The translations under genes were made by a program, and so were the position numbers. A stretch of DNA of 64,000 bases from Chloroflexota bacterium. GTDB lineage: Bacteria; Chloroflexota; Anaerolineae; Anaerolineales; UBA4823. Location of the stretch: contig JAJUJL010000008.1 of the NCBI GenBank assembly GCA_029265355.1, positions 1 to 64,000 of the forward strand, in the 5' to 3' direction. Position 1 is the first letter of the stretch. Each line of letters starts with the position of its first letter. Shown here piece after piece: positions 26,813-47,488 of the stretch. The notes under the pieces were generated by a model, which saw only the letters and a program-made list of their open reading frames with translations, did no database searches and was not told the origin of the DNA.

Positions 26813-26841
26813 TTGCTGTCTAGATCAGCCTCCACTATAAT
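26813..26841 (+). promoter_or_regulatory. Promoter giving near-leaderless arsR mRNA
   Basis: TTGCTG (26813-26818), a 17-base spacer and TATAAT (26836-26841) form a strong sigma-70-type promoter. The arsR ATG at 26849 is only seven bases past the -10, so the transcript should begin at the start codon. No ribosome site is present. Confidence 0.7.
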
Positions 26842-26848
26842 TCAATGT

Positions 26849-27241
26849 ATGTTGAACTATACTGCTCCACCGACACCTGCACCTGTAGATCTGGCGCGTT
26901 TGGCGAAGTGGCTGAAAGTTCTGGCTGAGCCCAACCGCCTGCTCATCTTTCACTTGCTAATGGAAGGCGTGCAATGCAATTGCGAACTGGGCGAACATCT
27001 GAAAATGGCCCCCAACCTGATCTCGCATCACCTGCGTGTGCTGCGTGAGGCAGGCTTGATCGAAGTGGAGCGAGACTCGCTGGATGCGCGCTGGATCTAC
27101 TATTCGGTCAACCGCCAGGCGCTTCAGGCTCTCAACCAGGTTTGGAGTGCATTCTTCGACCCGCAGCGCATCAAACCACGACGCCTGACCTGCGGACCGC
27201 AGGGCGAGATGATTCGCCTCAGTCAGGTGCATGAGGGGTAA
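26849..27241 (+). CDS. arsR: ArsR-family arsenite-type repressor
   Basis: This 130-residue winged-helix repressor has the alpha-3 Cys pair of As(III)-sensing ArsR proteins (QCNCEL, C43 and C45) just before the recognition helix (MAPNLISHHLRVLREAGLI). It heads arsR-arsD-arsA, so arsenite or antimonite is the likely inducer. ATG 26849 is the only sensible start, and the promoter implies a leaderless message. Confidence 0.9.
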   Translation: MLNYTAPPTPAPVDLARLAKWLKVLAEPNRLLIFHLLMEGVQCNCELGEHLKMAPNLISHHLRVLREAGLIEVERDSLDARWIYYSVNRQALQALNQVWSAFFDPQRIKPRRLTCGPQGEMIRLSQVHEG

Positions 27242-27279
27242 ATTTTTTTAACCAACCATTTCAATGGAGATTGAACTAA

Positions 27280-27639
27280 ATGAACGATTTTGTGCCTTTT
27301 TTCGATGCTGCGCCCGCTGTTTCATCCAAAGCGGATGTTGAAATTTTCGATCCGCCCATGTGTTGCCCCACCGGCATCTGCGGGCCGACCATTGACCAGG
27401 CCTTATTGGATTTGAACGAAACGGTGTTGTCGCTCCAGGCAAAAGGGATCAGCGTGGCACGCTACCAGATGACCAGCCATCCAAATGCCTTCCTCAACAA
27501 TGCGGACGTGATGAAGCTGGTGCGCGAGCAACAAATAGCTGCATTGCCCATCACCGTGGTGCAGGGCAGAGTCATTAAAACACAGGCTTACCCTACTCTG
27601 GAAGAAGTGCTGATTCACCTTAACGGAGCCTCCGTATGA
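27280..27639 (+). CDS. arsD: ArsD arsenite metallochaperone
   Basis: ArsD hands As(III) or Sb(III) to the ArsA ATPase. In this 119-residue thioredoxin-fold protein the binding cysteines lie in MCCPTGICG (C28, C29, C34), with the same spacing as the C12/C13/C18 set of plasmid ArsD. A 16-residue N-terminal extension precedes the domain. The stop overlaps arsA (ATGA), so the chaperone and its client ATPase are translationally coupled. Confidence 0.93.
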   Translation: MNDFVPFFDAAPAVSSKADVEIFDPPMCCPTGICGPTIDQALLDLNETVLSLQAKGISVARYQMTSHPNAFLNNADVMKLVREQQIAALPITVVQGRVIKTQAYPTLEEVLIHLNGASV

Positions 27640-29492
27640 CCAGTTATCTCTTTTTTTCCGGAAAGGGAGGCGTGGGCAAGACCAGCATGGCTTGCATCCA
27701 CGCCGTGCGCTATGCCGACCAGGGCCGGCGCACCCTGATCGTCACCACCGACCCTGCATCTAACCTGGCAGATGTTTTCGAGCAGGAAATCGGCCATCAT
27801 ATCACCCCGATCGCCGGCGTTCCCAATCTCTACGCGATGGAGATCGACCCAGATCAAGCCACGAAGGAATACATCGATCGCGCCATGGCGCCCATTCGCT
27901 TCGCCTTCCCGCCTCAAATGGTGCAGGTGATGGAGGAGCAAATGAGCGGCCCCTGCACGGCCGAAGTGGCAGCCTTCGATCGCTTCACCGACTTCCTGGA
28001 TGTCCCAGCCTGTAAAGAGGAAACCTTCGACGTGGTGATCTTCGACACGGCGCCCACCGGCCACACAATCCGTTTGCTCGAGCTGCCTGCCGAGTGGAGC
28101 CAGTCGATCGAGACTGCCAGCGCCGGCAGCGGCCAGACCTGTCTAGGACCGGCTGCTGCCATCCAGGATGCCAAGCTGAAGTACGAGCGTGCCCTGGCTG
28201 CCATGCGCCAGTCCTCCCAGACGATCTTTATCTTTGTCTTGCACCCCGAGGCAATCTCCATCAAGGAAACCCGCCGGGCGATCAGCGAGCTCAAGAAATT
28301 GGACATCGAGAACTACCGGTTGATCATCAACGGCATTATCCCACCCGAAGGCACGCAGAACCCACTCTTCGCTGCCCGTGCAGAAATGCAGGCACATTAC
28401 CTGTCTGAGATCGAGGCCAGTCTGCCTTACCCGAAACAGCAGATGGGGCTGCTTCCCAGCGAAATCAAGAGCGTGGAACGATTGCGCCAGGTGGGGAGCG
28501 TCTTCTTCGATGGCAACCCAAATCTAAAGATCGAAGATTCCATCATTGAAGCTGAAACACTTAAGCCAATCCAGCCTTCCAACTTGCAACTTTCCCACCT
28601 GCTAACCCCTAACGGTCATCGCCGTACGCTGTTCTTTGCGGGCAAGGGTGGGGTCGGCAAGACGGTTGCCTCGTGCATTGCCGCCGTCTGGCTGGCGCGG
28701 CAAGGATACAAAACCCTGCTCTTGACTACCGATCCCGCCGCCCACCTGGGCGACGTGCTCGGGGTGCCGGTGGGCGCCGAGCCTGCACCCGTGCCTGGAG
28801 CGAAAAACTTGTGGGCGGCCAATATTGACGCCAAAGCCGCTGCTGAAACCTACAAGGCGCGCATCCTGGATAACGCCCGCCAGCGCGGGCGGCCCGAATC
28901 GGCCATCCAGATCATGGCGGAAGAGCTTGACTCGCCCTGCACGGAAGAGATGGCCGCTTTCGACAAGTTCATTGAGTACGCCTCGCAAGAGGTTTGGCAG
29001 GTGGTGGTTTTCGATACCGCCCCAACCGGCCACACCCTGCGCCTGCTCGAATTGCCGATGGACTGGAGCAAGCAGATCGATGTGAAGATCTTTGCTTCTG
29101 TGGATACCGCTGCCGCAGACGATGTGGCCAAGCAGCGCTTCGGTAAGGTGATCGAGATGATGCGCGACCCGCAGCAGAGCGCCTTTGCCTTCGTGATGTA
29201 CCCAGAATCCACCCCCATCCTCGAAGCCTGGCGCGCCGCCAGAGAATTAAGCGCAGTCGGCATCCGGCCCAGCCTGGTGGTGGCTAACATGGTCATCCCA
29301 CCCGAGCAGGCAACCACGCCTTTCACCCGCTCCCGAAGGAGCATGCAGGAAAAGTACCTGGCGGAGATCGCCGAACGCTTCCAGGTACCTGTTGTGCAGA
29401 TTCCCCTGCTTTCACATGAGATCAAGGGATTGGCTATGCTTGCAGAGCTTGGCGAGTTGACTTATCAGCAGGAAGAAAGTAGGGTTTCTTAA
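27636..29492 (+). CDS. arsA: Arsenical pump-driving ATPase ArsA
   Basis: This 618-residue ATPase has two homologous halves. Each has a Walker A of the deviant type (GKGGVGKTSMA near residue 9, GKGGVGKTVAS near residue 335), a DTAPTGHT signal motif and Cys in PCTAEVAAFD/PCTEEMAAFD, as expected for the soluble ATPase of an arsenite efflux pump. ArsA normally docks on ArsB or Acr3, but neither is seen next to it. The closest membrane candidate in the window is the UPF0718/ArsP-type permease at 57,199, which is not a known ArsA partner. Confidence 0.95.
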   Translation: MTSYLFFSGKGGVGKTSMACIHAVRYADQGRRTLIVTTDPASNLADVFEQEIGHHITPIAGVPNLYAMEIDPDQATKEYIDRAMAPIRFAFPPQMVQVMEEQMSGPCTAEVAAFDRFTDFLDVPACKEETFDVVIFDTAPTGHTIRLLELPAEWSQSIETASAGSGQTCLGPAAAIQDAKLKYERALAAMRQSSQTIFIFVLHPEAISIKETRRAISELKKLDIENYRLIINGIIPPEGTQNPLFAARAEMQAHYLSEIEASLPYPKQQMGLLPSEIKSVERLRQVGSVFFDGNPNLKIEDSIIEAETLKPIQPSNLQLSHLLTPNGHRRTLFFAGKGGVGKTVASCIAAVWLARQGYKTLLLTTDPAAHLGDVLGVPVGAEPAPVPGAKNLWAANIDAKAAAETYKARILDNARQRGRPESAIQIMAEELDSPCTEEMAAFDKFIEYASQEVWQVVVFDTAPTGHTLRLLELPMDWSKQIDVKIFASVDTAAADDVAKQRFGKVIEMMRDPQQSAFAFVMYPESTPILEAWRAARELSAVGIRPSLVVANMVIPPEQATTPFTRSRRSMQEKYLAEIAERFQVPVVQIPLLSHEIKGLAMLAELGELTYQQEESRVS

Positions 29493-30564: not shown

Positions 30565-30690
30565 AATCAGGTATTTTGTATATTTGGCTATCTGCATAAG
30601 TTAATATTTTGACAGGCAAATGGGTCGGGATGGATTCGTGCTTGGAATTGCCCAACAAGTCTGGACGCCCTCTAAGTGATTGGGAACACC

Positions 30691-31041
30691 ATGGATCATA
30701 TTACTTCGCTGTATGAGGAAATCACGCAATTGCATGCTGATGTCTGCTCAGCGCTGGCGGATCCCAAACGCATCCTGTTAATCTACACCCTGGCTGAAAA
30801 GCCGCGCAACGTGGGCGAGCTTGCGCAGGCTTTAACCATGAATCAGCCAACTGTTTCTCGCCACCTGAAACTGCTGCGGGAGCGCGGCCTGGTGCAGGCT
30901 GTGCGTCGGGGCGCCTGCGTGGAATACCAGCTCACCGACCGCCGCCTGGTGCAGGCCCTGGATCTGTTGCGCGCAGTGCTACACGATCGCTTGAATTACC
31001 GGGCGCAGTTGGCGCAAGCCGATCAAATTGCCAAAGAATAA
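30691..31041 (+). CDS. ArsR/SmtB-family regulator
   Basis: This 116-residue winged-helix protein (NVGELAQALTMNQPTVSRHLKLLRERGLV) lacks the alpha-3 CxC of arsenite sensors. It has two isolated cysteines, one before the first core helix (HADVCSALADPKR) and one in the wing (RRGACVEYQL), which could form a redox or persulfide switch as in SqrR/BigR-like proteins. It is the first gene of the sulfur-respiration operon, so it is probably its local regulator. Confidence 0.82.
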   Translation: MDHITSLYEEITQLHADVCSALADPKRILLIYTLAEKPRNVGELAQALTMNQPTVSRHLKLLRERGLVQAVRRGACVEYQLTDRRLVQALDLLRAVLHDRLNYRAQLAQADQIAKE

Positions 31042-31092
31042 GCCTGGCCTGATATTAGCTTGAGTAAATTTCATTCTAAAGCGGAGTCAAGC

Positions 31093-32004
31093 ATGAACAA
31101 AAACAAAGTGACGCCTCTCACATTCATCATTGGCGGCGCAATGCTTCTGGTGGGAATTGCGCTTTGGATATCCACCAGCCCGGTGCAGGCACAGTGCGGT
31201 TCGCAAGCTTCTTCCTGCAAAAACTGTCACGAAATCCAGGGACAGGATCCGGTGAATTCCGATGGCACAGGCTGGCACCAGTCGCACGCGTTCGGAGATT
31301 TTTGCTATGTGTGCCACGCCGGAAACAACCAGAGTATGGTGGCTGAGGAGGCGCACGCGGGCATGGTGCCGCCTATGTCGGATGTGAAAGCCGCATGCCA
31401 GGCCTGCCATCCGGCTGATTTGATGGAACGCTCCCAGGTATACGCCGCAGCCCTGGGAGTCGAGATTGGCACCGGAGACGGCTCAACCAGCAGCGCAGCG
31501 AGCGGGAGCGCCCCTGCTGAGCCATCTGCGGAACAATCCGCTGACCCGCCTGCCGCAGGCGCTGTCGTCGTGGCGAGTTCCGAGGTTATTGACTACAACC
31601 AGCGCTATGCTGAAACCGTGCTGGGCCAGCGCACCATCAACTGGGGCAATGTGATTCTATGGGTGCTGTTGATAGCCACCCTGGTGGGCGGAAGCGCCTT
31701 TGTATATTGGAATGAGCGCCGGTTGCGTGGCTTACCCTTGGTCAGCAAGCGAGTCCCAGCGGCGGCTGCGGTGGAAATTCCGGTCGTTGAGGGATACTCC
31801 AGCGAGGTGACTGCCCTGCTTCCGTTTCTCGCCCGGCTAAACCCGGTCGGATTGCACGCCTTGAAGCGCCTGTTGCAACACCCTGATGACGCGGCTGAGT
31901 TGCTGCACCATCTATCGCAGCTTGATCCAAACCTGGTGAAGAACATCCGCTCGTTGGACCCTGCATCTCGCAATCTTCTGCTGGCGCTGGCGGGCGATCG
32001 ATAA
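31093..32004 (+). CDS. Membrane-anchored triheme cytochrome c
   Basis: 303 residues. An N-terminal signal or membrane helix (FIIGGAMLLVGIALWI) is followed by three CxxCH heme sites (CKNCH at 42, CYVCH at 71, CQACH at 102) and extra His residues that can be axial ligands. An Ala/Pro/Ser linker, a second membrane segment (VILWVLLIATLVGGSAFVYW) and a cytosolic C-terminal domain of about 80 residues follow. It probably carries electrons between the membrane quinol system and the extracytoplasmic molybdoenzyme encoded downstream. No close named family. Confidence 0.8.
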   Translation: MNKNKVTPLTFIIGGAMLLVGIALWISTSPVQAQCGSQASSCKNCHEIQGQDPVNSDGTGWHQSHAFGDFCYVCHAGNNQSMVAEEAHAGMVPPMSDVKAACQACHPADLMERSQVYAAALGVEIGTGDGSTSSAASGSAPAEPSAEQSADPPAAGAVVVASSEVIDYNQRYAETVLGQRTINWGNVILWVLLIATLVGGSAFVYWNERRLRGLPLVSKRVPAAAAVEIPVVEGYSSEVTALLPFLARLNPVGLHALKRLLQHPDDAAELLHHLSQLDPNLVKNIRSLDPASRNLLLALAGDR

Positions 32005-32043: not shown

Positions 32044-32577
32044 ATGAACTGGTTTCGCAAACAACTGGCCAAAGAATTGTGGTCGCCCTATACCGCCGGT
32101 GTGCTGTTGGGTGTGGTCGGCGTGCTGGCAGTGTGGCTCAGCGACAGCCTGCTGGGAGCTTCGGGGGCTTTCGAAAACCTGGCTGGGCTCATCGGAAAAG
32201 CCGTTGCACCGCAGGTGTTCAATAACATGTACTTCAACTTCATTATGCCAGCCGGTATCACCTGGGGAGTGGTGCTGCTGGTGGGCATCTTCCTGGGGGG
32301 CATGGTGGGGGCGCTGCTCTCTGGCACTTTCAAACTGCGCTTCAATGATGATGCCCAGTGGAAAGCCACCTTTGGACCGCAAGCCTGGAAGCGTTGGGTG
32401 ATCGCCTTTTTCGGCGCCATTGTGCTGGAATACGGCGCGGGAATCGCCGGCGGCTGCACCAGCGGGCTGGCCATCTCGGGAGGCATGCTGCTAGCGCCGG
32501 CGGCGTTCATTTTCATCGGGGCGATGTTTGCCTCAGGGATCGTTACGACCCTTCTCGTCTACCGCAAAAATTATTAA
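32044..32577 (+). CDS. YeeE/YedE-type sulfur transporter, first half
   Basis: 177 residues with about four membrane segments. The family signature is in the third quarter (GAGIAGGCTSGLAISGGM), whose Cys takes part in thiosulfate passage in TsuA-type transporters. Full-length YeeE/TsuA is about 350 residues with two pseudo-repeats; here the repeats are separate genes, and the second half follows 26 bases later. It should import thiosulfate or a related sulfur (or selenium) compound, which fits the reductase genes behind it. Confidence 0.85.
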   Translation: MNWFRKQLAKELWSPYTAGVLLGVVGVLAVWLSDSLLGASGAFENLAGLIGKAVAPQVFNNMYFNFIMPAGITWGVVLLVGIFLGGMVGALLSGTFKLRFNDDAQWKATFGPQAWKRWVIAFFGAIVLEYGAGIAGGCTSGLAISGGMLLAPAAFIFIGAMFASGIVTTLLVYRKNY

Positions 32578-32603: not shown

Positions 32604-33161
32604 ATGCTCAATTACACGCTGGCATTGTTTCTCGGTATCGCCTTCGGCTTCTCGCTGAACAAAGCCGGGCTAACCCGTTACCACAAAATCGTAAACGTCT
32701 TCCGCTTTACTGATCTGGCCGTCTTGAAATTCATGATGACCGCCCTGGTCGTATCCATGACCGGTCTGTATACACTGCGTGGCCTGGGTTTGATCACATT
32801 TCCGAATATCCCTGCTACCTACGTGGCCGGCAATCTGGTGGGTGGGCTGATTTTCGGTGTGGGCATGGCTCTCACCGGGTTCTGACCGGGCACCTGCGCC
32901 GCCGGGAGCGGCGAAGGAAAACTGGACTATCTCATCCCCGGTATGCTCGGCTTCCTGACTGGGGCAGCGATTTTTGGACTTACCTACCAGCAGGTCTTTC
33001 CGCAGATCGAAAAAGTCGCCAAACTTGGCAATGTGGTCATCCCTGATCTCTGGAACCTGAACCCCTACCTGGTGGTTGCGCTGTTTACACTGATCAGCCT
33101 GCTGCTGTTCTATGCCATCGACCGGGCAGGCTTGCAGCGTAAGGATAAAGTAAGGTCTTAA
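32604..33161 (+). CDS. YeeE/YedE-type transporter, second half; candidate selenoprotein (Sec94)
   Basis: GGAGG precedes ATG 32604. The frame encodes 93 residues to GVGMALTGF, meets TGA at 32883-32885, and continues in the same frame with PGTCAAGSGEGKLD and membrane helices to 33161 (185 residues in all). In YeeE proteins this place reads GYCPGT, so the TGA stands exactly at a conserved functional Cys. A hairpin follows (CGCCGC-CGGGA-GCGGCG, 32897-32913) whose loop begins 17 bases after the TGA and has G among its first two bases, within the accepted range for bacterial SECIS elements. Selenocysteine insertion explains all of this better than a pseudogene, but no sel genes are in the window. 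Confidence 0.72.
32897..32913 (+). promoter_or_regulatory. SECIS-like hairpin
   Basis: A six-base-pair stem (CGCCGC with GCGGCG) carries a five-base loop CGGGA. It starts 11 bases after the in-frame TGA and its loop starts 17 bases after it. It lies inside the coding frame, where bacterial SECIS elements must be to bind SelB. Confidence 0.6.
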
Positions 33162-33204: not shown

Positions 33205-35391
33205 ATGGCCAATAAAACGCTCAGTCGAAGGGACTTTCTGAAGGTCGGCGGCGCAGCCGGCGGGGCGATGCTGCTCGGCAGCTTCGTCGCTCCACCCATC
33301 GCCCAGGCGGCGCGCCGCTTGGGCAGCCTGGATGCCAATGGCGATGGATATATTCCCACGATGTGCGAAATGTGCGTATGGCGCTGCGGTGTGCTGGCCA
33401 AAGTGGAGGGCGGGAGAATCGTCAAACTGGAGGGCAATCCAGAACATCCCCATTCACGCGGCCGCTTGTGTGCGCGCGGGCAATCCGGCTTGATGAACAC
33501 TTACGATCCTGACCGGGTTCTAAAGCCATTGGTGCGCGTCGGGCAGCGCGGCGAGGGCAAATTCCGCACAGCCAGTTGGGATGAAGCCCTGGACATTGTC
33601 GCCGACAACATGCTCAAAATCAAGCAAAATTACGGGCCGGAGGCGATGGTTTTCTCTTCCACCCACAACTTGAGCCAGGTGCAATTCGAGAATCTGCTGA
33701 ACGGCTTCGGTTCGCCCAACTATGGCACACAGCGCAGCCTGTGCTTCAACGCCATGGTGACCGCTTTCTCGTTGACCTACGGCGTGGAGGAACCCGCCCG
33801 GAACTACGATGAGGTCGAATTCATCCTGCTGGTGGGACGTAACCTGACCGAAGCGATCTCCACCTCCGAGACAGCCGAACTGGTGGAGGCAATCTCGCGC
33901 GGGGCAAAGCTGGTCTACCTTGACCCGCGCTACACCAAGACAGCGGCAAAGGCCAGCGAATGGATCCCGATTCGCCCAGGTACAGATGCAGCTTTCTTGC
34001 TGGCAATGATCCACGTCATCGTCAGCGAAGAGCTGGCTGATTGCGAATTCGTCAAGAAGTATGTGTTGGGTTGCGATGATATTGTCGAGGCCATGCAGCC
34101 CTACACGCCGCAGTGGGCAGAGACGATCACCGGTGTACCCGCCAGCACCATCGATCGTATCGCTCGCGAGTTTGCGGCGGCAAAGCACAAGGCCCTGGCA
34201 CACCCCGGCTGGCGCACATCAAACTTCATCAACTCATTCCAGACCGAGCGCGCCATCGCTACCCTGAATGCGCTGAGCGGCAACGTGCTCACACCGGGCG
34301 GCTGTCTGGCAGCCGAGAGCCCGGAAGCCGCCAGCATTGGCCTGGGCAAACCGCCGCAGCCCCCTTACCCGCGCATCTCAGCGTTGCGCCTGGATGGTGT
34401 ACCCTGGAAATATCCGCTCGTGCCGCTCAAACTGGGCGTTTTCCAAGAGCTGCGCGATGCCATCCTCAGCGGACAACCTTACCAGGCTCATGGCTGGCTG
34501 GTAGCCCGGCAGAATCCAGTGCTCTCTTTACCTGACCGGGCGCGCACTTTGCAGGCGATCAGCAAGCTTGACTTTTTGGTGACGGTGGATATCATCATGA
34601 ACGACACCTCCTGGTACTCTGATGTCGTTCTACCGGAAGCCTCCTACCTGGAACGCTACGATCCTCTCCATATCGTAGACAGGAAAATCTACCTGCGTCA
34701 GCCAGTCGTTGAGCCACAAGGTGAAGCCAGGTCGGCGCTGTGGATCTATAAACAGCTTGGCGAGCGCCTGGGCCTGGGTGATTTCTTCCAATACGAAGAT
34801 GAAGAAGACTACATCCGCCAGCAACTGGCGCCATTGAACCTGGATTTCAACGAATTGAGGATCAAGGGCTATCTCGATCCAGGCGTGGCGCAGGAAGAGC
34901 GCGAGATTGTTTTCAACACCCCTTCCGGCAAAATCGAGGTCTATTCGGAAACGCTTGGCAAGGCCGGTTTCTCTCCCTGGCCCACCTGGGAAGATCCCGT
35001 TTATCCCAGGCCGGGCGAATTTTATCTGCTAACCGGCAAGGTTGCCCAACACACCCAGTTTGGCACCCAGAACAACCAGTTACTGCACAAATACCAGGAT
35101 GAGCCCAGGTTGTGGCTGCACCCAGAGCCCGCAGCGAGCCTGGGATTGAAAGACTGGGATGTGGTGGAAGTGACCAGCCAGGTCGGAAGCGTCAAGGTGC
35201 CCGTAAAAATTACTCAAGCCATCCGGCCAGATTGCGTTTACCTGACACCCGGGTACGGGCATGCCTCCAAAGGGCTGCGCACGGCTTACCAGGTAGGCGC
35301 AAACGCCTCAGATCTGCACGTCACCTACACCGACCCCATCAGCGGAGGCCAGGCGCTCAGCCAGACCTTCGTCACGATCAAGAAGGCGTAG
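33205..35391 (+). CDS. phsA: Thiosulfate/polysulfide reductase-type molybdoenzyme, catalytic subunit
   Basis: This 728-residue molybdopterin protein of the DMSO-reductase family carries a Tat signal (SRRDFLKVGG), so it is exported folded. A [4Fe-4S] cluster is held by CEMCVWRC and C89 (GRLCARG). C180 (QRSLCFNAM) is the likely Mo ligand, as in PsrA/PhsA. The length is typical of PhsA. The order A (catalytic), B (Fe-S), C (cytochrome b) and the YeeE transporters upstream support thiosulfate or polysulfide as substrate. Arsenate or another oxyanion cannot be excluded from sequence alone. Confidence 0.85.
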   Translation: MANKTLSRRDFLKVGGAAGGAMLLGSFVAPPIAQAARRLGSLDANGDGYIPTMCEMCVWRCGVLAKVEGGRIVKLEGNPEHPHSRGRLCARGQSGLMNTYDPDRVLKPLVRVGQRGEGKFRTASWDEALDIVADNMLKIKQNYGPEAMVFSSTHNLSQVQFENLLNGFGSPNYGTQRSLCFNAMVTAFSLTYGVEEPARNYDEVEFILLVGRNLTEAISTSETAELVEAISRGAKLVYLDPRYTKTAAKASEWIPIRPGTDAAFLLAMIHVIVSEELADCEFVKKYVLGCDDIVEAMQPYTPQWAETITGVPASTIDRIAREFAAAKHKALAHPGWRTSNFINSFQTERAIATLNALSGNVLTPGGCLAAESPEAASIGLGKPPQPPYPRISALRLDGVPWKYPLVPLKLGVFQELRDAILSGQPYQAHGWLVARQNPVLSLPDRARTLQAISKLDFLVTVDIIMNDTSWYSDVVLPEASYLERYDPLHIVDRKIYLRQPVVEPQGEARSALWIYKQLGERLGLGDFFQYEDEEDYIRQQLAPLNLDFNELRIKGYLDPGVAQEEREIVFNTPSGKIEVYSETLGKAGFSPWPTWEDPVYPRPGEFYLLTGKVAQHTQFGTQNNQLLHKYQDEPRLWLHPEPAASLGLKDWDVVEVTSQVGSVKVPVKITQAIRPDCVYLTPGYGHASKGLRTAYQVGANASDLHVTYTDPISGGQALSQTFVTIKKA

Positions 35392-35404: not shown

Positions 35405-36187
35405 ATGAAAAGAAAAAACCACTACGCATTCGTCATTGATGTCGCTCGTTGCATCGACTGCCGCGCCTGCCAGGTGGCATGCAGCGTTGAGAACCACGTG
35501 CCTATGGAAAACACCCGCATCTGGGTGCAGGACCTGGGAGTGCAGGGCGAGTTTCCCAACTTGCAGCATATCTTCGTGCCCTACAACTGTATGCACTGCG
35601 AACACCCGCCATGCACGGAAGTCTGCGTCAGCGGTGCAACATACAAAGATAAAGATACCGGGCTGGTGCTGGTGGATCAAGATGCCTGCATCGGCTGCGG
35701 CTACTGCGTGGATGCCTGCCCTTACAATGTGCGCTACCTGGATAAGAAGCGCGGTGTGGTCGATAAATGCAACGCCTGCGCCCAGCGCCTGGAAGTTGGC
35801 CTGGAACCAGCCTGCGTGGCGACCTGCATTGGAGGTTCGCGTTTGTTCGGCGATCTGAACGACCCGGTTTCCAAAGCTTCCGTAGCGCTGCAAAATGCCA
35901 GGAACATCGTGCGGCTGGATTACGAAGCCAACGGGCACGATACAGACCCCAACATTTACTACATCAACCTTCCGAACATGGAACAGCTAAACATGCCAGA
36001 ACTGTTCCAACCGCTGGTTTCACAGAGCGGCGCGCTGCCCCGCGCGCCAAAGTACACCCTTTCGGAGCAGGGCTGGAAACATGTGGCTGTGCCGCTGCTG
36101 GCAGCCGGCATCGGAGCTTCTTTCCTGGTACAGGCAATCTATTTCACCAAGCAATTGATCGAGGGCGAGAAAGAGTTCGAGGAGTAA
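35405..36187 (+). CDS. phsB: Electron-transfer Fe-S subunit (PhsB/PsrB type)
   Basis: This 260-residue ferredoxin-like subunit has the four cysteine clusters of the PsrB/DmsB family (CIDCRACQVAC, CMHCEHPPCTEVC, CIGCGYCVDAC, CNAC with CVATC), predicting four [4Fe-4S] centres in a chain between the catalytic subunit and the membrane. A C-terminal hydrophobic helix (VAVPLLAAGIGASFLVQAIYF) anchors it, unlike most PsrB proteins, which are soluble. It starts 13 bases after phsA. Confidence 0.9.
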   Translation: MKRKNHYAFVIDVARCIDCRACQVACSVENHVPMENTRIWVQDLGVQGEFPNLQHIFVPYNCMHCEHPPCTEVCVSGATYKDKDTGLVLVDQDACIGCGYCVDACPYNVRYLDKKRGVVDKCNACAQRLEVGLEPACVATCIGGSRLFGDLNDPVSKASVALQNARNIVRLDYEANGHDTDPNIYYINLPNMEQLNMPELFQPLVSQSGALPRAPKYTLSEQGWKHVAVPLLAAGIGASFLVQAIYFTKQLIEGEKEFEE

Positions 36188-36190
36188 GCT

Positions 36191-36994
36191 ATGGGTCACA
36201 AGAATATCCCCCTGCCTGAGCGGCGCCGGCTGCGCTCCAAGATGTACAAAAAGCACAACCTGGCCAATATTCTGACGCACTGGTTCAATGTCGGCATGTG
36301 GTTGCTCTTGCTGCCCACCGGGATTGCAATCCTGTCTTCACCGCGCCTCGGCCTCAGCCCACTCTGGATGCAAGAAATGTTTCGCAATGTGTTCGGGGGA
36401 ACCGCCAACCTGATTCGCTTTCATTACACAGTTGGCTTGCTGTGGATCTTCGTACTGGTTTTCAATATCCTGGTTGGTTTCAGGCGCTACTTCGTACCAT
36501 TCGCAGCCACGCGCCTGCTGCTCGACCAGGATGATATCGAATGGCTGAAAACCAAGCCGCTGCAAATGCTGGGGTTCATGAAAGACAAGGAGCTGCCCCC
36601 TCAGGATGCTTATAACGCTGGGCAGAAGTTGTATATGTACGTGGTGATCTTTGGAACGATCGGTATCATGGTGAGTGGCGTCGTGATGACCTTCAATCAG
36701 GTATTCCCACCCCTCCTCAAACAGATCGCCCAGCCGGTTCATTGGGTATCCGTGTTTTCGATTGTCGCCGGGTTAATTATCCACGTGTACATGGGCGCCG
36801 TCTTTCCCGAAGAAAAGGAAGCTTTCTTCTCGATGTTCAGCGGAAAAGTGTCTGCCTGGTATGCCCGAGCACACCATGAAAAATGGTACAACGAGAAGCT
36901 GCGTGAAGAAATGGCGTGGGAGGATCTCGTCCGTCAAGAGCTGGCGCGCAGTGCGGAGCAGCACGCTCAAGAACAACCCGCCACGGCGGATTAA
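36191..36994 (+). CDS. phsC: Membrane cytochrome b subunit (PhsC/FdnI type)
   Basis: 267 residues with four membrane segments (near 30-50, 75-95, 150-170 and 190-215 by hydrophobicity). His residues in helices 1, 2 and 4 (LTHWFNVGMW, RFHYTVGLLW, VHWVSV and HVYMG) are suitable heme b ligands, as in FdnI and PhsC. It should oxidise or reduce quinol and pass electrons to the Fe-S subunit. It starts three bases after phsB, and the C-terminal tail is soluble and charged. Confidence 0.88.
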   Translation: MGHKNIPLPERRRLRSKMYKKHNLANILTHWFNVGMWLLLLPTGIAILSSPRLGLSPLWMQEMFRNVFGGTANLIRFHYTVGLLWIFVLVFNILVGFRRYFVPFAATRLLLDQDDIEWLKTKPLQMLGFMKDKELPPQDAYNAGQKLYMYVVIFGTIGIMVSGVVMTFNQVFPPLLKQIAQPVHWVSVFSIVAGLIIHVYMGAVFPEEKEAFFSMFSGKVSAWYARAHHEKWYNEKLREEMAWEDLVRQELARSAEQHAQEQPATAD

Positions 36995-37003
36995 CGCCCT
37001 GAA

Positions 37004-38038
37004 ATGCGCCCCTCGTTTTTTCACCACCTGCACCCACCCACTATCCCAGCCAGGCAGGCTCGGTTAAGGTATACCTGGGGTGCAGGTGGATTCTCCGTCT
37101 TCTTGCTGCTGGCAGTGATCTTCAGCGGCTTGCTGGAGGTGTTTTTCTACGTTCCCACTCCGGAGCAGGCGCCGCTTTCGATCCAGAGCCTGACCTTCCT
37201 CATCCCCTACGGTGGGTTTGTACGCAACCTGCATTACTGGTCTGCTCAACTGCTGGTGCTGGCAGCAGGTTTGCACCTGGTGCGGGTAATTTTCACAGGC
37301 GCGTATGCCCCGCCGCGCCGCTTCAACTATCTATTGGGTATCGGCCTGTTCGTAGCGCTGCTGCTGCTCGATTTCACCGGTTACATACTGCGCTGGGATC
37401 AAGATGTGCAGTGGGCGCTGGTCACAGGCACCAATTTGCTCAAGTCAATCCCGGGCATAGGGCAGTGGCTGTATGCGCTGGTCACAGGAGGAGACCGGCT
37501 GGGAGCGGTCACGCTGATTCGCTTTTACGGCTGGCATATCTTCGGCTTGATGCTGCCGGCCGTGATCATCGGCGTTTGGCACCTGTTTCGCGTGCGCCGG
37601 GATGGCGGCATTGCTGTACCTCCGCCGGCGCAGCGCCAGGATGCCGAGCGCATCAACCGAACTGAATTGGTTCGCCGTGAGGCGCTTGCCGCGCTGTTTG
37701 GCGCCGCCGGGCTGGTGTTTCTCGCCGCGTTCTTCCCTGCACCATTGGCTGCGCCCATCGGTGAACCAGACGCGGCTAAACAGGCTGCCCTTGCTCCCTG
37801 GTTCTTTCTGTGGGTGCAGCAAATGCTGCGTTGGGGCGATCCGTTTCTTTTCGGCGTGCTCATCCCGGTTGGCTGGCTGGCGCTGCTGGCACTGCTGCCT
37901 TATTTTACCCCGGCTCCCAGCGCAGTCGAATTGGGGCGCTGGTTTCCGCCATCAGGACGAGCGGCGCAACTCATCTTTTCAGCCCTCGCTGTGACAGTGC
38001 TGGTCTTCAGCCTGTGGGCCTGGCTGGCGGCAGCTTGA
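37004..38038 (+). CDS. Cytochrome b (bc1/b6-type)
   Basis: 344 residues. The first 210 resemble the N-terminal four-helix half of cytochrome b, with the two pairs of heme-ligand His (HYWSAQLLVLAAGLHLVR and GWHIFGLMLPAVIIGVWHL). The last 130 residues add three helices resembling subunit IV or a cytochrome b C-terminus. With the Rieske and multiheme genes behind it, it forms an alternative quinol-cytochrome c oxidoreductase, placed in the same operon as the reductase. Confidence 0.85.
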   Translation: MRPSFFHHLHPPTIPARQARLRYTWGAGGFSVFLLLAVIFSGLLEVFFYVPTPEQAPLSIQSLTFLIPYGGFVRNLHYWSAQLLVLAAGLHLVRVIFTGAYAPPRRFNYLLGIGLFVALLLLDFTGYILRWDQDVQWALVTGTNLLKSIPGIGQWLYALVTGGDRLGAVTLIRFYGWHIFGLMLPAVIIGVWHLFRVRRDGGIAVPPPAQRQDAERINRTELVRREALAALFGAAGLVFLAAFFPAPLAAPIGEPDAAKQAALAPWFFLWVQQMLRWGDPFLFGVLIPVGWLALLALLPYFTPAPSAVELGRWFPPSGRAAQLIFSALAVTVLVFSLWAWLAAA

Positions 38039-38042
38039 TGAC

Positions 38043-39278
38043 ATGCAGCGCACACGCCTGGTTGCTTCAATTTTGCTGCTGGCAGCAATGGCTATCAGCA
38101 TCTGGCGGGTTGAAACAGCGCCACAGCCGGTTCCACTGGCGCCAACCCTGACCAGGCAAACCGAATACTGCCTCACCTGCCACAGCGAGCTGGCAGAGAT
38201 CAGCCCGTCCCATCCAATAGAGACCTTTGGCTGTGTAATCTGCCATGGAGGTGAACGCCTGGCGTTGGATGCCGACCTGGCGCACAGCAGTCTGCGCGGG
38301 GGACGCAACCCGTCGGATTTCTCGGTCGTGCAAGAGTCCTGCGGCGGGGAAGACTGCCATTCTGGTTCCGCCGCACAGGCGCGAGATCACATCCCGCGCG
38401 TATTGCGCAGCATTCAGGCAACGTATGCTGGCGCCATTGCCAACATGCGCTACACTTTCGGCGCCCAGGAGGACTTAAGCGCTCGAATGGGCATCTTCGC
38501 CATCCAAGACCCCAATCCCACATCCTCCAGCGTGCCAGGCCTGTCTGCTTTCGACCCGTCTCAAGAAACACACCCTTCCCTGATCGCCTTCTCGCAAAAC
38601 TGTCTGAGCTGCCACCTTTCATCCGAGCCGCTGCCGGGGAAGGAATATGCCCGCCTGACCGGCTGTGCTGCCTGTCACACACCCACTGCAGGGACTGATC
38701 TGGAACAACCTCTTCACCGGTTGACGACTGCCATTCCCTATACACAGTGCAATACCTGCCACAACCGCGGCAACTATGAGCTGCGCAGTATGCATTTTCA
38801 AGCGAGGTCCGACCAGCCTACCAACCGACTGGACGACTACTACCAGCCGATTGCCCAGTTCGTTCGCTGCGAATGGACGCTGGACTGCATCGACTGCCAC
38901 ACCCGCCAAGAAGCTATGGGAGATGGTCATATCTACTCCAGTCAAAAAGAAGCCGAGTATGTGCGCTGCTACACCTGCCACGGCACGCTCGACGAGCTGC
39001 CGCTCACCCGCACGATCAGCGACCCGAATGATCTTGCCCTGCGCCTGGCATTCGTCAATCCCCAGTTCGACTTACAGGTTGGCGATACCATCATCATCAC
39101 CGACCGGGGTGAGCCGCTGTGGAACACGCGCCGGCTGCCAGATGGCAGTTATGAGCTGCTCGCCAAAGCCAGCGGGCAGCGCTTCACCTTCCGGGCGGTG
39201 AAGGGCAGCGCCTGCCAGCAATCCGCCGAGCAGCAAGAATCGAGCTACTGCCATGCCTGCCATGCCGTCGAGCGATAA
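38043..39278 (+). CDS. Multiheme cytochrome c (about nine hemes)
   Basis: 411 residues with a signal peptide (LVASILLLAAMAISIW). There are eight CxxCH sites (CLTCH, CVICH, CLSCH, CAACH, CNTCH, CIDCH, CYTCH, CHACH) plus one CX4CH (CGGEDCH), a spacing known from some multiheme cytochromes. It takes the place of cytochrome c1 between cytochrome b and the Rieske gene, so it should be the electron outlet or inlet of that complex. The last heme site lies where the next gene's start overlaps by 26 bases. Confidence 0.82.
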   Translation: MQRTRLVASILLLAAMAISIWRVETAPQPVPLAPTLTRQTEYCLTCHSELAEISPSHPIETFGCVICHGGERLALDADLAHSSLRGGRNPSDFSVVQESCGGEDCHSGSAAQARDHIPRVLRSIQATYAGAIANMRYTFGAQEDLSARMGIFAIQDPNPTSSSVPGLSAFDPSQETHPSLIAFSQNCLSCHLSSEPLPGKEYARLTGCAACHTPTAGTDLEQPLHRLTTAIPYTQCNTCHNRGNYELRSMHFQARSDQPTNRLDDYYQPIAQFVRCEWTLDCIDCHTRQEAMGDGHIYSSQKEAEYVRCYTCHGTLDELPLTRTISDPNDLALRLAFVNPQFDLQVGDTIIITDRGEPLWNTRRLPDGSYELLAKASGQRFTFRAVKGSACQQSAEQQESSYCHACHAVER

Positions 39279-42319: not shown

Positions 42320-45300
42320 CTATACCTTTTCGACTTTCACCTTGCTGTCATAGAAGACGGCGCTGCCGCCCGCCAGGTCAGAGAGAGTGACATTGCCCAG
42401 ATGTGGGTCAACACGCATGGCGGCGTTGCCGTGCAGCGGCGCCGCCCGGCGCGGGTCTCCCTTGACCACCATCCCATCGATGGTGATATCGTGGCTGCCG
42501 CTGGCCCAATGCCCATAACCCAGCGGGAAGGCTACCACGCCGGGGCGCAGTCCTTCGACGATATGCGCCTTACCGATCATGGGCACTTTGCGTCCGCCTT
42601 TCACATCCCAAACTCCATCCGGGTTGCTGGCGGATGATAGCCGGACGCGATCGCCATGCTGGATGCCCAGGCGCTCGGCATCAGCCCGGTTCAGCATCAC
42701 GTAGCCTTCCGGCTGCACAGCCATCAGCCAGTAATTGGTGACCGTGCGTGCCTTGGTCATGGTGATCATCTTAAAGGTGATCAGGTTGAACTCGTAGCCC
42801 TCGTCTTCGATCTCCTCGCCGGTGGAGGACAGGCCGGCAGGAACATAGGTGGTGTAGCCGGTAAAGGGCTTACCTGTCATGGTATTGATCGAAGTGTAAG
42901 TCTTCTCTTGATACAGGTTGATCAAACGCCCGTATTTGTTGGCTACCAGATCACCTTTGTAACCCTTGGCAAAGTCCTGGTAGCGCCCGCCGCGGTTGAG
43001 CACGAAGACCGTCTTGCGCCACAGGCTTTCATCGCCACCCACCGCAGCCTTCCAAACCTCGGCGTCGAAGACGGATTTGGGCAAATGGCGGCGCGCCTCC
43101 AGGAAAATGCGCATTTCCTCATCGTCGGCTTCTGGCACGTTATCCGAGCCATCTTCTTTATCGCCGAAGGCGATATCGGCTACCTGCTTCAGGTAGAAGT
43201 GCTCGGGGCGGGTGAAGGGAATGCCCTCGCCGAAGCCATTGGGCCCAAAACCGGGCAGTTCCAGCTTCTCGGCAATGGCCATCAAGAGAGCCTCGAACGA
43301 CATCGGGATCTCTTCGCCATACACCTTGACAGTGGGCCAGCCCGGCAGAGAGATGGCTGGCTGGCGGACGTTCTCCACCTTCCAGGGCACAGATGGGTGA
43401 GAGCCATGGAATTCCCAGCGCTCCAGGAAAGACAGGTCCGGAAAGATGTAATCCGCGTAAGAAGAAGTCTCGCCCACCAGGATATCACTGGCGATGTGCA
43501 GCGGCACCTTCTTGGTATCCGCCAGGATTTCGATGGCGGTATGCCCGGCAGGCAAGCTGTAGACGCTGCCGTTCATGTACGTCATCAATACTTTGATTGG
43601 ATAGGGATAGGCATCGCCAATCGAAGGAATGTCTTCCTGGTAGACATCGGTGGCGATGGGGAACCAGGGGCGCCTGGTTGGGTAGGTGCCATCAAACAGG
43701 GTGCTCTTTTCGTAAGCAACCCTGGTGCGCAGCATGTCCACTCCAAAGGAAGTGAAGTGATGCTCGCCGAACATGGTGGTCACCGGGAAAGGCTGGCCTT
43801 TCTTGCTGCCCTTGCGGTCGTAGGTGCTGGCTTTAATCGTGCCACCAGCGTAGTCGAAATTGCCGATCAGCAGGTTGACTACGTACCAGGCGTTGTTGTT
43901 GTAGAAACCGTTGGTGTGCTGGGATGGGCCGCGGTGGATATCAGCTACCGCTTTACGCCCGTGGGAGGTGAACTCGGCAGCCAGTTCCAGGATGTCTCTC
44001 TCTTTTACGCCCGCAATCTCAGCCCATTCAGCGATGGTGTGCTGCTGCGCCGATTCGAGCAGGATCTGCAAGCCGCTCTTCACTTCGAACTCGCCAACAG
44101 TCTGGTTGACCAGCAAATCGCCCACCACCGGCGCAGCTTCAGGATCGAGCACATCAATAGGCGTTGGCGCACCGCCCACCAGGGCGACCGGTGTGTCGCC
44201 CGGATACTGCACACCAGCAGCATCTACATAAACGGTGACATCTTTGCCATCTTTCTGAACAGTCTGCGGGGTAAGCAGGCCCAGCTCACTGGCGCGCAGA
44301 TGCTTGCCGGGCTGCCCATCTTTGATCTTGACCAGCCAGGCGGCGTTGGTATAGTTCGGTTCGCCGGCTGCTGTGGCGGCCGCCTGGTTGGCAATCGCCA
44401 GGTAAGCAGCGTTGTAACGCTCGTTCTCCAGCATCCAGCGGATCATCCCCAGGGCAAAGGCTGCGTCCGTGCCGGGTTTGATTGGCACCCATTTCCAGGC
44501 TTTTGCAGCCACTTTGCTCAGGCGAGGATCGATCACGGCAAACTTTTTGCCATTGATCAGGCCCTCCGTGGCTTTTGGCGTGCGTTGCGGCGGGCCGTAG
44601 TTGGCCTCGAACAGGTTGGCTCCAACGTAGATGACGAACTCGCTGTTACCGGTATCACCCTGCCAGTAAAACTTATCGCCGCTATCCCACGAGCTTTTAG
44701 CAGCATTCCACTTGGCGCTCATGGCTTTGCCGGTGAAGTAGAGCGAACCCTGGCACACAGTCGTGTGACCGTTCATGTTGACTGTGCCATAAGCTTCCTG
44801 GAAGAAGCGGTGCACCACATCTTCGCGGCCACCCTTCATGCGTCCCCAGACAAACATGAGCTGGTTGTTCTTCGGTCCCAAGTCTGGGTGCTCTGGATCG
44901 ATGAGCGCCTCCAGGTGATCAGCATGCTTTGCCTTGAACTCTTCCACCAAGGCTTTCTTCTTATCGGCATCATTTTCATCCCAGATGGCCTTGATCTCGG
45001 CAGCCATCTCGGCTGCTACCTCGGTATCTGTCAGGGCGCGAATCGATTTCAGGCCTTCCACCGGGCCTTCTCCGAACAGGTCGCCGCCGTTGACGATCTC
45101 GTCGATGGCCTGATCGAAAGGAATGCTGACCCACTGACCCTCGCCGCGCTTGGTGCCGGGCTTGCGTTTGAGCACGCTGGTGATGCGGTATGGGTCATAG
45201 GCGCTCTGCAAGCCGGCCTGCCCCTTGGGACAGATGCCGCCTTCCATCGTTGCCATGTCCTTGACCGGTGTATCGTACGCCGGGTGCGGCCAAAGCGTCC

Positions 45301-45598
45301 AGGGACTGTACGGATTGCCATCAATCTTAGCCGCCAGTCCATCGAGCAACTTGACCTTGATAGCGCAGCCAGTGTTGCACTGTAAGCAGACTGTGTAGAT
45401 CTGGTTCTCGGGTTTACTTTCGAAAAAACCACCCTCTCCAGCAGCCATTACCTTTTGGATAGCCTGGCGGGCCTGCGGGATGTTACCCAACAGCGCCAGG
45501 GCGCCGCCGGTTACTGCTGAAAGTCGAATGAAATCACGCCGCGAGACTGTGGGGCGCTCCGCGATTTGATCGCTGTTTTGTGGTTGCTGTTTAGCCAT
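42320..45598 (-). CDS. ttrA: Tetrathionate reductase-type molybdoenzyme, catalytic subunit
   Basis: 1092 residues with a Tat signal ([10 protein letters not shown], 19-28). The [4Fe-4S] ligands are C71, C74, C78 and C123. C282 (GHTTVCQGS) is the likely Mo ligand. Molybdopterin-binding blocks follow ([33 protein letters not shown]). The size is near TtrA (about 1020) and well above PhsA or ArrA. The gene order ttrB-ttrC-ttrA is the same as in Salmonella. It should reduce tetrathionate to thiosulfate, or a related sulfur or metalloid oxyanion. A 909-codon open frame runs antisense to it and is a codon-bias artefact. Confidence 0.8.
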
Positions 45599-45599
45599 T

Positions 45600-46727
45600 T
45601 CATGCCTCCTTGCTGCTCAAAGGCAGGCGATCTTCGCCAATCAGAAATGCCAGCACCGCCATGCCGACGATGCCCAGTGTGACCGCCCATTCCATGAGGC
45701 TTGGGAAATAATCAAATGTGAGATGTGGACCACTAAAGGCAGTGGTCAGCGCCTGGATTTCCGGCACCGTGAGAGCGGGGAAGACGATATTGGCGCGGGC
45801 GACGGCAAAGCCAAACAAGACCAGCACGCCCATCCAGCCGGCCCAACCGTTGTGTCGCGCCAGCTTGGGCTGCACCAGCACGAAGATCGGAACCAATGTG
45901 CCGATTAGAATTTGCAGTATCCAGAAAGCCCACCAGTATGGGCCGTACAGCACCGCGCGCACAGCTTCGACGTTCTGCGGCACGTTGCCGTACATACTCT
46001 GTGAGAAGTCCGCCCACAAAAAGTACAGTTTGACGACTGCCAGGGCAACTGTTAAGACAGATAGCACCCAGAGCTGTTCTGAACGATTGGGCGACTCTTT
46101 TTGCCCAAACAGGCCGATCACAACCAGCATGGCGGCAGCTCCAGATGCTAACGAGAAGACCGGGAACTGCACCGGCAGCAAACCAACATGCCAGAACAGG
46201 CGGCTGGCTTCTACACCCAACAGTGCTCCCACTGCGCCACTGACGAACAGAGAGAGAGGCAGGCCTACGATCATCAAAGTTCGCAAGAGACTGCTCTGCG
46301 GATTGCGAATGGACAGGTAGAGTGAGGCCAACATGAGCAGTCCAAACAAAGTGTAGCCCCACACCATTTGAGCCATCACCGAACCCAGGTCGCCTTGCAG
46401 GTACACTTTCCAGATGCGCTCCATGTGACCCAGGTCAAGCCAGATCGAAAGCAAGGCAGCCGCCAGGCTCACCAGCCCCACCCACAGGGCTGTGCGCCCG
46501 GTACCTTTGAAGATTTTGATATGGAACAGCAGATCCAGAGTTGAGATCATGAAGGCCCCTGCCGCTGTGCCGGCGAAGAATAAGTACATCGCCACCCACA
46601 GTCCCCAGACCACGTAGGAACCGTAGGCTGCTTCACGGTGGCCTGTTGTCAGCCGGACGAAGACGCCCCACAAGCCAAACAGAAGGGCCAAGGCGCTAAT
46701 GGTATAAATCGCACGCTTGAAGTTCAT
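45600..46727 (-). CDS. ttrC: NrfD/PsrC-type quinol-oxidising membrane subunit
   Basis: 375 residues with nine to ten membrane segments in the NrfD/PsrC/TtrC pattern. There is no heme ligand set, but quinone-pocket residues are likely near the N-terminal helices (YGSYVVWGLWVAMYLFFAGTAAGAF). It links the quinol pool to the Fe-S subunit. It ends one base before ttrA and starts 11 bases after ttrB. Confidence 0.88.
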   Translation of the reverse strand: MNFKRAIYTISALALLFGLWGVFVRLTTGHREAAYGSYVVWGLWVAMYLFFAGTAAGAFMISTLDLLFHIKIFKGTGRTALWVGLVSLAAALLSIWLDLGHMERIWKVYLQGDLGSVMAQMVWGYTLFGLLMLASLYLSIRNPQSSLLRTLMIVGLPLSLFVSGAVGALLGVEASRLFWHVGLLPVQFPVFSLASGAAAMLVVIGLFGQKESPNRSEQLWVLSVLTVALAVVKLYFLWADFSQSMYGNVPQNVEAVRAVLYGPYWWAFWILQILIGTLVPIFVLVQPKLARHNGWAGWMGVLVLFGFAVARANIVFPALTVPEIQALTTAFSGPHLTFDYFPSLMEWAVTLGIVGMAVLAFLIGEDRLPLSSKEA

Positions 46728-46738
46728 CTCATTGCTCC

Positions 46739-47488
46739 TTACACCAGGTAGTACACGCGTGGCTCGGTGCCCAGCTCTTCTTTGAGTCGCATCACGTTCG
46801 GGCTGGCGATCATCTCGGCTACCAGGCTATCGGGATCGTTCGCGTCGCCGAACAGGGTAGCGCGACCAATACAGGTAGTGGTGCAGGCCGGCAGCATGCC
46901 CTCCGCCAGGCGGTGCAGGCAGAAGTGGCACTTGCGGACGTTGCCAATAGGAGATTTTTCGCCTTCGCGCTGGCGGTTCTCGCCATACTCGTAATTGGCA
47001 TGGCGCTCGTAGTCATCGGCGTTGGCCTGCCCAAACAAGAAGGGGAAATTATCGGGCGTGTTATCCGTGTAGGTCAAACCGAAGTCGAAGGTGCGCGCTC
47101 CATACGGGCAGGCTGTCACGCAGTAGCGGCACCCGATGCACTGGTCATAATCCACGACGGTGACGCCCTCATTGTTTTTGTAGGTGGCATTCACCGGGCA
47201 GACCGGCACACAAGGCGGCTCGTCACATTGCATACAAGGGCGGGGGATAAAGCGGCGGGTCACATTCGGGTAGCTGCCGAACTCCTCATCGAGCACCGGG
47301 CGGTAGACGACGCCGGGTGGCAGCTTATTTTCGGCAACACAGGCGATGGTGCAGGCGTGGCATCCCACGCACTTGCGCAAGTCTATCACCATCACCCAGC
47401 GCCTTTCTTCGGGCTTCTTTTTCAGCGCCCGCTGGAGTTCTGCGTGCATTCGCACCAGCACATCTTGCTGTTCGAGCACTCCGAGCAT
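46739..47488 (-). CDS. ttrB: Tetrathionate reductase-type Fe-S subunit
   Basis: 249 residues with four ferredoxin-like clusters ([46 protein letters not shown] with CTTTC) for an electron wire between the NrfD subunit and TtrA. Like other TtrB/PsrB-type proteins it has no clear Tat motif here and probably travels with the TtrA signal. AAGGAGG precedes the start. First gene of the minus-strand operon, divergent from the 47,748 sensor kinase. Confidence 0.88.

Follow-up and report, generated by a model that had tools for sequence, protein, structure and literature searches.

A single in-frame TGA codon at positions 32883-32885 (+ strand) of the 64,000-nucleotide stretch of Chloroflexota DNA analyzed here (the window) is, on the sequence evidence, almost certainly recoded as selenocysteine (Sec). 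It lies in a gene (32604..33161, + strand) whose product is a half-size, PmpB-type subunit corresponding to the N-terminal half of YeeE/YedE proteins, and it is likely that this product is jointly a selenoprotein and a split-YeeE subunit with some sulfur- or selenium-conduit role. The features that can be read at the sequence level are the recoding signature, the column that the codon occupies in the family, a downstream SECIS hairpin, the Sec decoding machinery and a conserved operon. A preliminary description had interpreted the gene as a Sec-containing YeeE/YedE sulfur transporter; the Sec assignment held, given selA-D, the TGA/Cys column and the SECIS element, but the protein is a half-size subunit instead of a whole transporter.

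The frame is open on either side of the TGA, as that description had also noted, and readthrough yields a 185-aa protein that scores 76.5 bits against PF04143 (Sulf_transp; Pfam gathering cut-off of 27 bits), with an E-value of 3.4e-21 over profile positions 10-159. The codon stands in the place of the Cys of the G-F-[C]-P-G-T motif, in agreement with the earlier reading, and this Cys is invariant in an alignment of 58 relatives with identities as low as 31%. In an alignment with Spirochaeta thermophila TsuA, residue 94 falls on Cys91, one of the three relay cysteines (C293, C91 and C22) that line the path through that protein (PMC11073785). The TsuA set is not reproduced here, with Sec at the C91 position and an invariant Thr24 at that of C22, so the relay would differ from that of TsuA. 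The half-size subunit also misses the NCBIfam TsuA equivalog cut-off (40.8 vs. 400 bits). AlphaFold2 predictions of the monomer reached a pLDDT of 49 with 14 orthologues and of 74 with 58 relatives; the latter model does not reproduce the TsuA fold, and the PDB yielded nothing better than E = 4. Since the monomeric half matches no PDB entry, structure prediction lends no support to the assignment.

To place the codon in its family context, as the preliminary description had proposed, we compared it across homologues. A search of 61 related genomes returned 13 further orthologous copies (70-82% identity), 11 with TGA and 2 with TGC at this codon, and a scan of GTDB genomes yielded 72 named Chloroflexota orthologues (59-82% identity; Anaerolineae wherever the class is given), 43 of which present TGA and 29 TGC or TGT. 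Eight distant relatives from the Pseudomonadota, Gemmatimonadota, Planctomycetota and Dependentiae all encode Cys. A misread base at 32883, raised earlier as a possible explanation, cannot recur in 43 independent assemblies, and the scattered stops or frameshifts that would have spoken against the Sec reading were not seen among the orthologues: the few extra stops are all natural termini, and no other internal stop is present. Furthermore, differences downstream of the TGA are distributed over the three codon positions in the same manner in Sec forms (0.295/0.163/0.577) and Cys forms (0.295/0.185/0.591), indicating that the stretch past the TGA is translated protein.

The six-pair hairpin with a CGGGA loop 17 nt after the TGA that had been pointed out previously is present at 32897..32913 (+ strand), with its 5' arm at 32897-32902 (CGCCGC), its loop at 32903-32907 and its 3' arm at 32908-32913 (GCGGCG). 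The bacterial SECIS (bSECIS) model calls for a loop of 3-9 nt, a stem of 4-16 bp, a G in the first two loop positions, a distance of 16-37 nt from the TGA and a folding energy of at most -7.5 kcal/mol (PMC13188914). With 6 bp, a CGGGA loop, a 17-nt distance and -10.2 kcal/mol, the window hairpin fits this model. Its single-sequence fold is unremarkable (z = -1.29), with 24 of 200 shuffled sequences folding equally well. For comparative analysis we required a G in the first two loop positions, a distance of 16-20 nt from the codon and -7 kcal/mol or better. Hairpins of this kind occur in all 43 TGA genes, with energies of -7.4 kcal/mol or better (three being marginal at -7.4), and in only 2 of the 29 Cys genes (Fisher 8.6e-18, a value that overstates the association because related sequences are not independent). 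When synonymous codons were reshuffled in 44 Sec genes, the hairpin was kept in a mean of 9.5 and a maximum of 16, whereas in the Cys genes observed and reshuffled counts agree (2 vs. 3.4). The hairpin takes two forms. In 24 genes it is CGCCGC-loop-GCGGCG, and the other 20 have UCGCCG-GGUC-CGGCGA or a shortened variant carrying the Ser codon TCC. In the first 12 TGA genes, the stem codons (Ala GCC, Gly GGC and Glu GAA) are shared by 12 of 12, and the stem is broken in both Cys genes. Because the hairpin tracks the TGA across orthologues and exceeds what synonymous reshuffling produces, it is not a product of chance.

The absence of selA, selB, selC or selD would have spoken against Sec decoding, and all four components are encoded in the source genome (5.05 Mb, 98% complete), with scores of 543 bits for selA, 344 bits for selB, 75 bits for tRNA-Sec and 358 bits for selD. 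The selD gene (G000:C31:236905-237837, L068) contains an in-frame TGA of its own and is itself a probable Sec gene. Against Sec decoding stand a few genomes, all of them draft metagenome assemblies: three with the TGA gene (G005, 95% complete; G019; G025) contain selB but no tRNA-Sec that passes the cut-off, and G008 contains tRNA-Sec but no selB that passes it. A scan of the window for further TGA-interrupted reading frames did not reveal a second convincing case.

These data bear directly on two readings that dispense with Sec. TGA otherwise serves as a normal terminator in this genome, ending 24 of the 52 ORFs in the window, and a downstream reading frame could restart at 32943, so that the codon might mark the end of a truncated protein or pseudogene with merely coincidental homology beyond it. 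We regard this as very improbable, since 43 orthologues keep TGA at the exact codon, the coding constraint downstream equals that of the Cys forms, no other internal stop appears and the hairpin accompanies the TGA. Reassignment of TGA in the lineage, or its reading as Trp or Cys without Sec, would be compatible with a column that otherwise holds Cys, but it deserves equally little credence: the same use of TGA as a terminator contradicts it, the Sec pathway is complete in this genome, which also has a TGA-containing selD, and dependence on a hairpin fits SelB decoding. The TGA/Cys pattern among orthologues, the hairpin and TGA stop usage thus led us to reject a reassigned opal code, a pseudogene and a sequencing error alike.

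Immediately upstream of the Sec gene, a second half-size YeeE protein of 177 aa (32044..32577, + strand) matches PF04143 over profile positions 168-309 with 67.4 bits (cut-off of 27 bits) and represents a PmpA-type C-terminal half. Its only cysteine, Cys138 in a GGCTSG motif, is encoded by a Cys codon in 74 of 74 relatives and, by homology to PmpA and not by direct alignment, probably stands in for TsuA Cys293. The two genes thus encode adjoining half-size proteins that cover the C- and N-terminal halves of the profile with one relay residue each, as expected of a split YeeE, and they are adjacent in orthologues wherever the contig extends far enough. The Sec subunit probably works with this upstream half.

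The pair is embedded in a set of genes on the same strand. It is preceded by an ArsR-family repressor (30676..31041) that resembles the sulfur-sensing BigR and TsoR below their cut-offs, and by a multihaem c-type cytochrome (31060..32004) with a weak Cytochrome_C7 match and a conserved upstream location. It is followed by the catalytic subunit of a PhsA-like Mo-bis-MGD oxidoreductase with a Tat signal (33205..35391; 595 bits against a PhsA cut-off of 694), and then, on the basis of profile matches and conserved context, by a PhsB/TtrB-like 4Fe-4S electron-transfer subunit (35405..36187) and a cytochrome b561/formate dehydrogenase gamma-like membrane subunit (36191..36994). A cytochrome b/b6 (37004..38038) and a multihaem cytochrome c (38043..39278) complete the set. 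The order cytochrome c, YeeE half A, YeeE half B, PhsA-like subunit and Fe-S protein is kept across the order where contigs allow, mostly with ArsR on the upstream side and with cytochromes b and c on the downstream side. No TsuB/YeeD gene was identified among the genes of this operon. Elsewhere in the window, ArsR, ArsD-like and duplicated ArsA-type ATPase genes (26813-29492) lie upstream of the operon and were not found beside the orthologous operons examined, and a second Mo enzyme set on the minus strand (42320-47488) encodes a TtrA-like 1092-aa Tat protein, an Fe-S protein and an NrfD-like membrane subunit; its A and B subunits stay below every NCBIfam equivalog cut-off.

Taken together, these observations suggest a mechanism in which SelB, tRNA-Sec and the downstream hairpin would decode TGA 32883 as Sec94 of a 185-aa membrane protein, placing Sec at the position of the middle relay cysteine of TsuA. 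From homology to PmpA/PmpB, we infer that the Sec half would pair with the product of 32044-32577 in a heterodimeric channel, in which a thiol-selenol pair could relay a reduced sulfur species through the cytoplasmic membrane, namely thiosulfate or sulfane sulfur, the direction of this transport being likewise conjectural. Sulfur transport by the Sec subunit is proposed by analogy, from homology and context, and thiosulfate or sulfane sulfur is the somewhat favored substrate. The channel would be coupled through its operon to the PhsA-like thiosulfate/polysulfide-type reductase and the multihaem cytochromes, probably under the control of a sulfur-responsive ArsR repressor, and Sec may serve as a faster or less easily over-oxidized relay group.

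The main functional alternative retains the selenoprotein but has the split channel carry a selenium or tellurium compound for Ext-like selenite/tellurite reduction. The neighboring cytochromes b and c find their nearest NCBIfam models in ExtP and ExtM of selenite/tellurite operons, and YedE relatives are tied to selenium transport, with archaeal YedE split in two (PMC5322559). Both Ext matches nevertheless fall below cut-off (210 vs. 290 bits and 141 vs. 800 bits, respectively), the reductase is nearest to the PhsA thiosulfate reductase, and the Sec subunit scores higher against the NCBIfam TsuA model (41 bits) than against the YedE selenium models (32 and 23 bits), which together make this alternative unlikely. 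An even less probable proposal is that the selenoprotein is not a transporter and that a Sec94-Cys98 selenenylsulfide links the cytochromes and the Mo enzyme by electron transfer. The operon is rich in electron carriers, and Cys98 (32895-32897, within the motif UPGTC) is present in 43 of 43 Sec orthologues but in 22 of 29 Cys orthologues (p = 0.001, uncorrected for relatedness). Several Cys forms therefore lack a Cys at residue 98, and PF04143 membership, like the presence of a partner half with the other relay Cys, is in keeping with a channel.

Comparison with known systems locates this putative sulfur channel among several relatives. TsuA/YeeE of S. thermophila and E. coli is homologous, with its relay Cys91 aligning to residue 94, but is a single chain with three relay cysteines, whereas the protein described here is split, with Sec for Cys91 and Thr for Cys22. 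An architectural parallel comes from two Serratia proteins: PmpB corresponds to the N-terminal half of YeeE and bears the equivalent of Cys91, PmpA corresponds to the C-terminal half and bears that of Cys293, and a heterodimer of the two has been proposed (PMC11582611). Both systems consist of adjacent half-size C- and N-terminal halves with the Cys91-type position in the N-terminal half; in contrast, PmpB has Cys, the Pmp proteins are about 130 aa long (vs. 177 and 185 aa here) and the pair described here lies in a reductase operon. SoxT transporters associated with SoxR/sHdrR likewise place a YeeE-family protein beside an ArsR-type repressor, but they are full-length, contain only Cys and reside in sulfur oxidation clusters. 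In the Ext selenite/tellurite operons and the Tso selenoprotein operon of NCBIfam, the models of ExtP, ExtM and TsoR resemble the neighboring cytochromes and ArsR; all matches lie below cut-offs, and the Sec subunit matches none of the Tso selenoprotein models (TsoA, B, C, X and Y; E up to 0.001).

The preliminary description knew of no established example of a Sec-containing YeeE, a statement that has to be revised, because reviews list a predicted YeeE/YedE selenoprotein of PF04143 with the motif GUxSG (WP_012471001.1; PMC13188914, PMC9312934). As here, a single predicted Sec replaces a conserved Cys, but the motif differs from the GUPGT(C) of the window protein, and the Sec of WP_012471001.1 may occupy either the Cys91 or the Cys293 column, the Cys91 motif of TsuA itself being GCASG. 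That accession is close to Trichlorobacter lovleyi numbers, whereas the present protein is a half-size subunit in a respiratory operon of the Chloroflexota. Hence, this is not the first Sec YeeE, and what sets the Chloroflexota case apart is the split form and the GUPGT motif. In the papers searched, we found no description of this form, although an earlier one may exist.

Soluble redox enzymes account for nearly all occurrences of Sec, in contrast with its predicted location here, at a relay residue of a membrane conduit for sulfur. Only tentatively can the protein be advanced as an undescribed type of selenoprotein, namely a split PmpAB-like channel whose central relay residue is Sec, widespread in the Anaerolineae and working with a respiratory Mo-reductase, with Sec having arisen at least twice at the column (here and in a rhodanese-fused paralogue of one genome). 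If true, two such origins would point to direct selenol-sulfur chemistry inside the membrane conduit. Sec and Cys orthologues occur in the same operon and in genomes retaining the Sec machinery, and such close pairs make the effect of a single S-to-Se exchange on transport directly testable. This comparison bears on a question in the TsuA/SoxT literature, namely whether YeeE channels operate through covalent S-S/Se-S intermediates or through hydrogen bonds only (PMC11582611). On a practical level, standard annotation will split or truncate this gene in many Chloroflexota genomes.

As far as the sequences indicate, Sec and Cys have been exchanged repeatedly at this column, with at least 10 changes of label on a quick tree, 3 of which are forced by strongly supported branches. 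Both Cys-form genomes checked (G001 and G041) retain selB and tRNA-Sec, so their Cys forms are not due to loss of the machinery. One Cys form (TGT; L120:3001-3540) groups with a Sec form as its sister (L124; starred branch), and its hairpin, still perfect, looks like what remains after a recent replacement of Sec by Cys. In G043, a rhodanese domain is joined to a distant paralogue of the YeeE N-half (30% identity; L150:5495-6790, minus strand), in which TGA interrupts the frame at the corresponding Cys (GGY*PGTSLVG) and a weaker hairpin follows. Although found in one genome only, it is probably a second, independent Sec event and a sign that the column favors Sec. Three YeeE-family genes of a distant Chloroflexota genome (G124; L161 and L162) contain one TGA each; these were rejected as Sec sites on inspection, as they do not lie at Cys motifs, and an assembly error or decoding as Trp may be among their causes. 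Relatives were not found in the viral contigs searched, and those on plasmids are only distant (best, 38% identity). Finally, one genome (G020; completeness 92, contamination 9%) has three copies of the gene with TGA, on separate contigs (C583, C560 and C557, corresponding to L060, L061 and L062).
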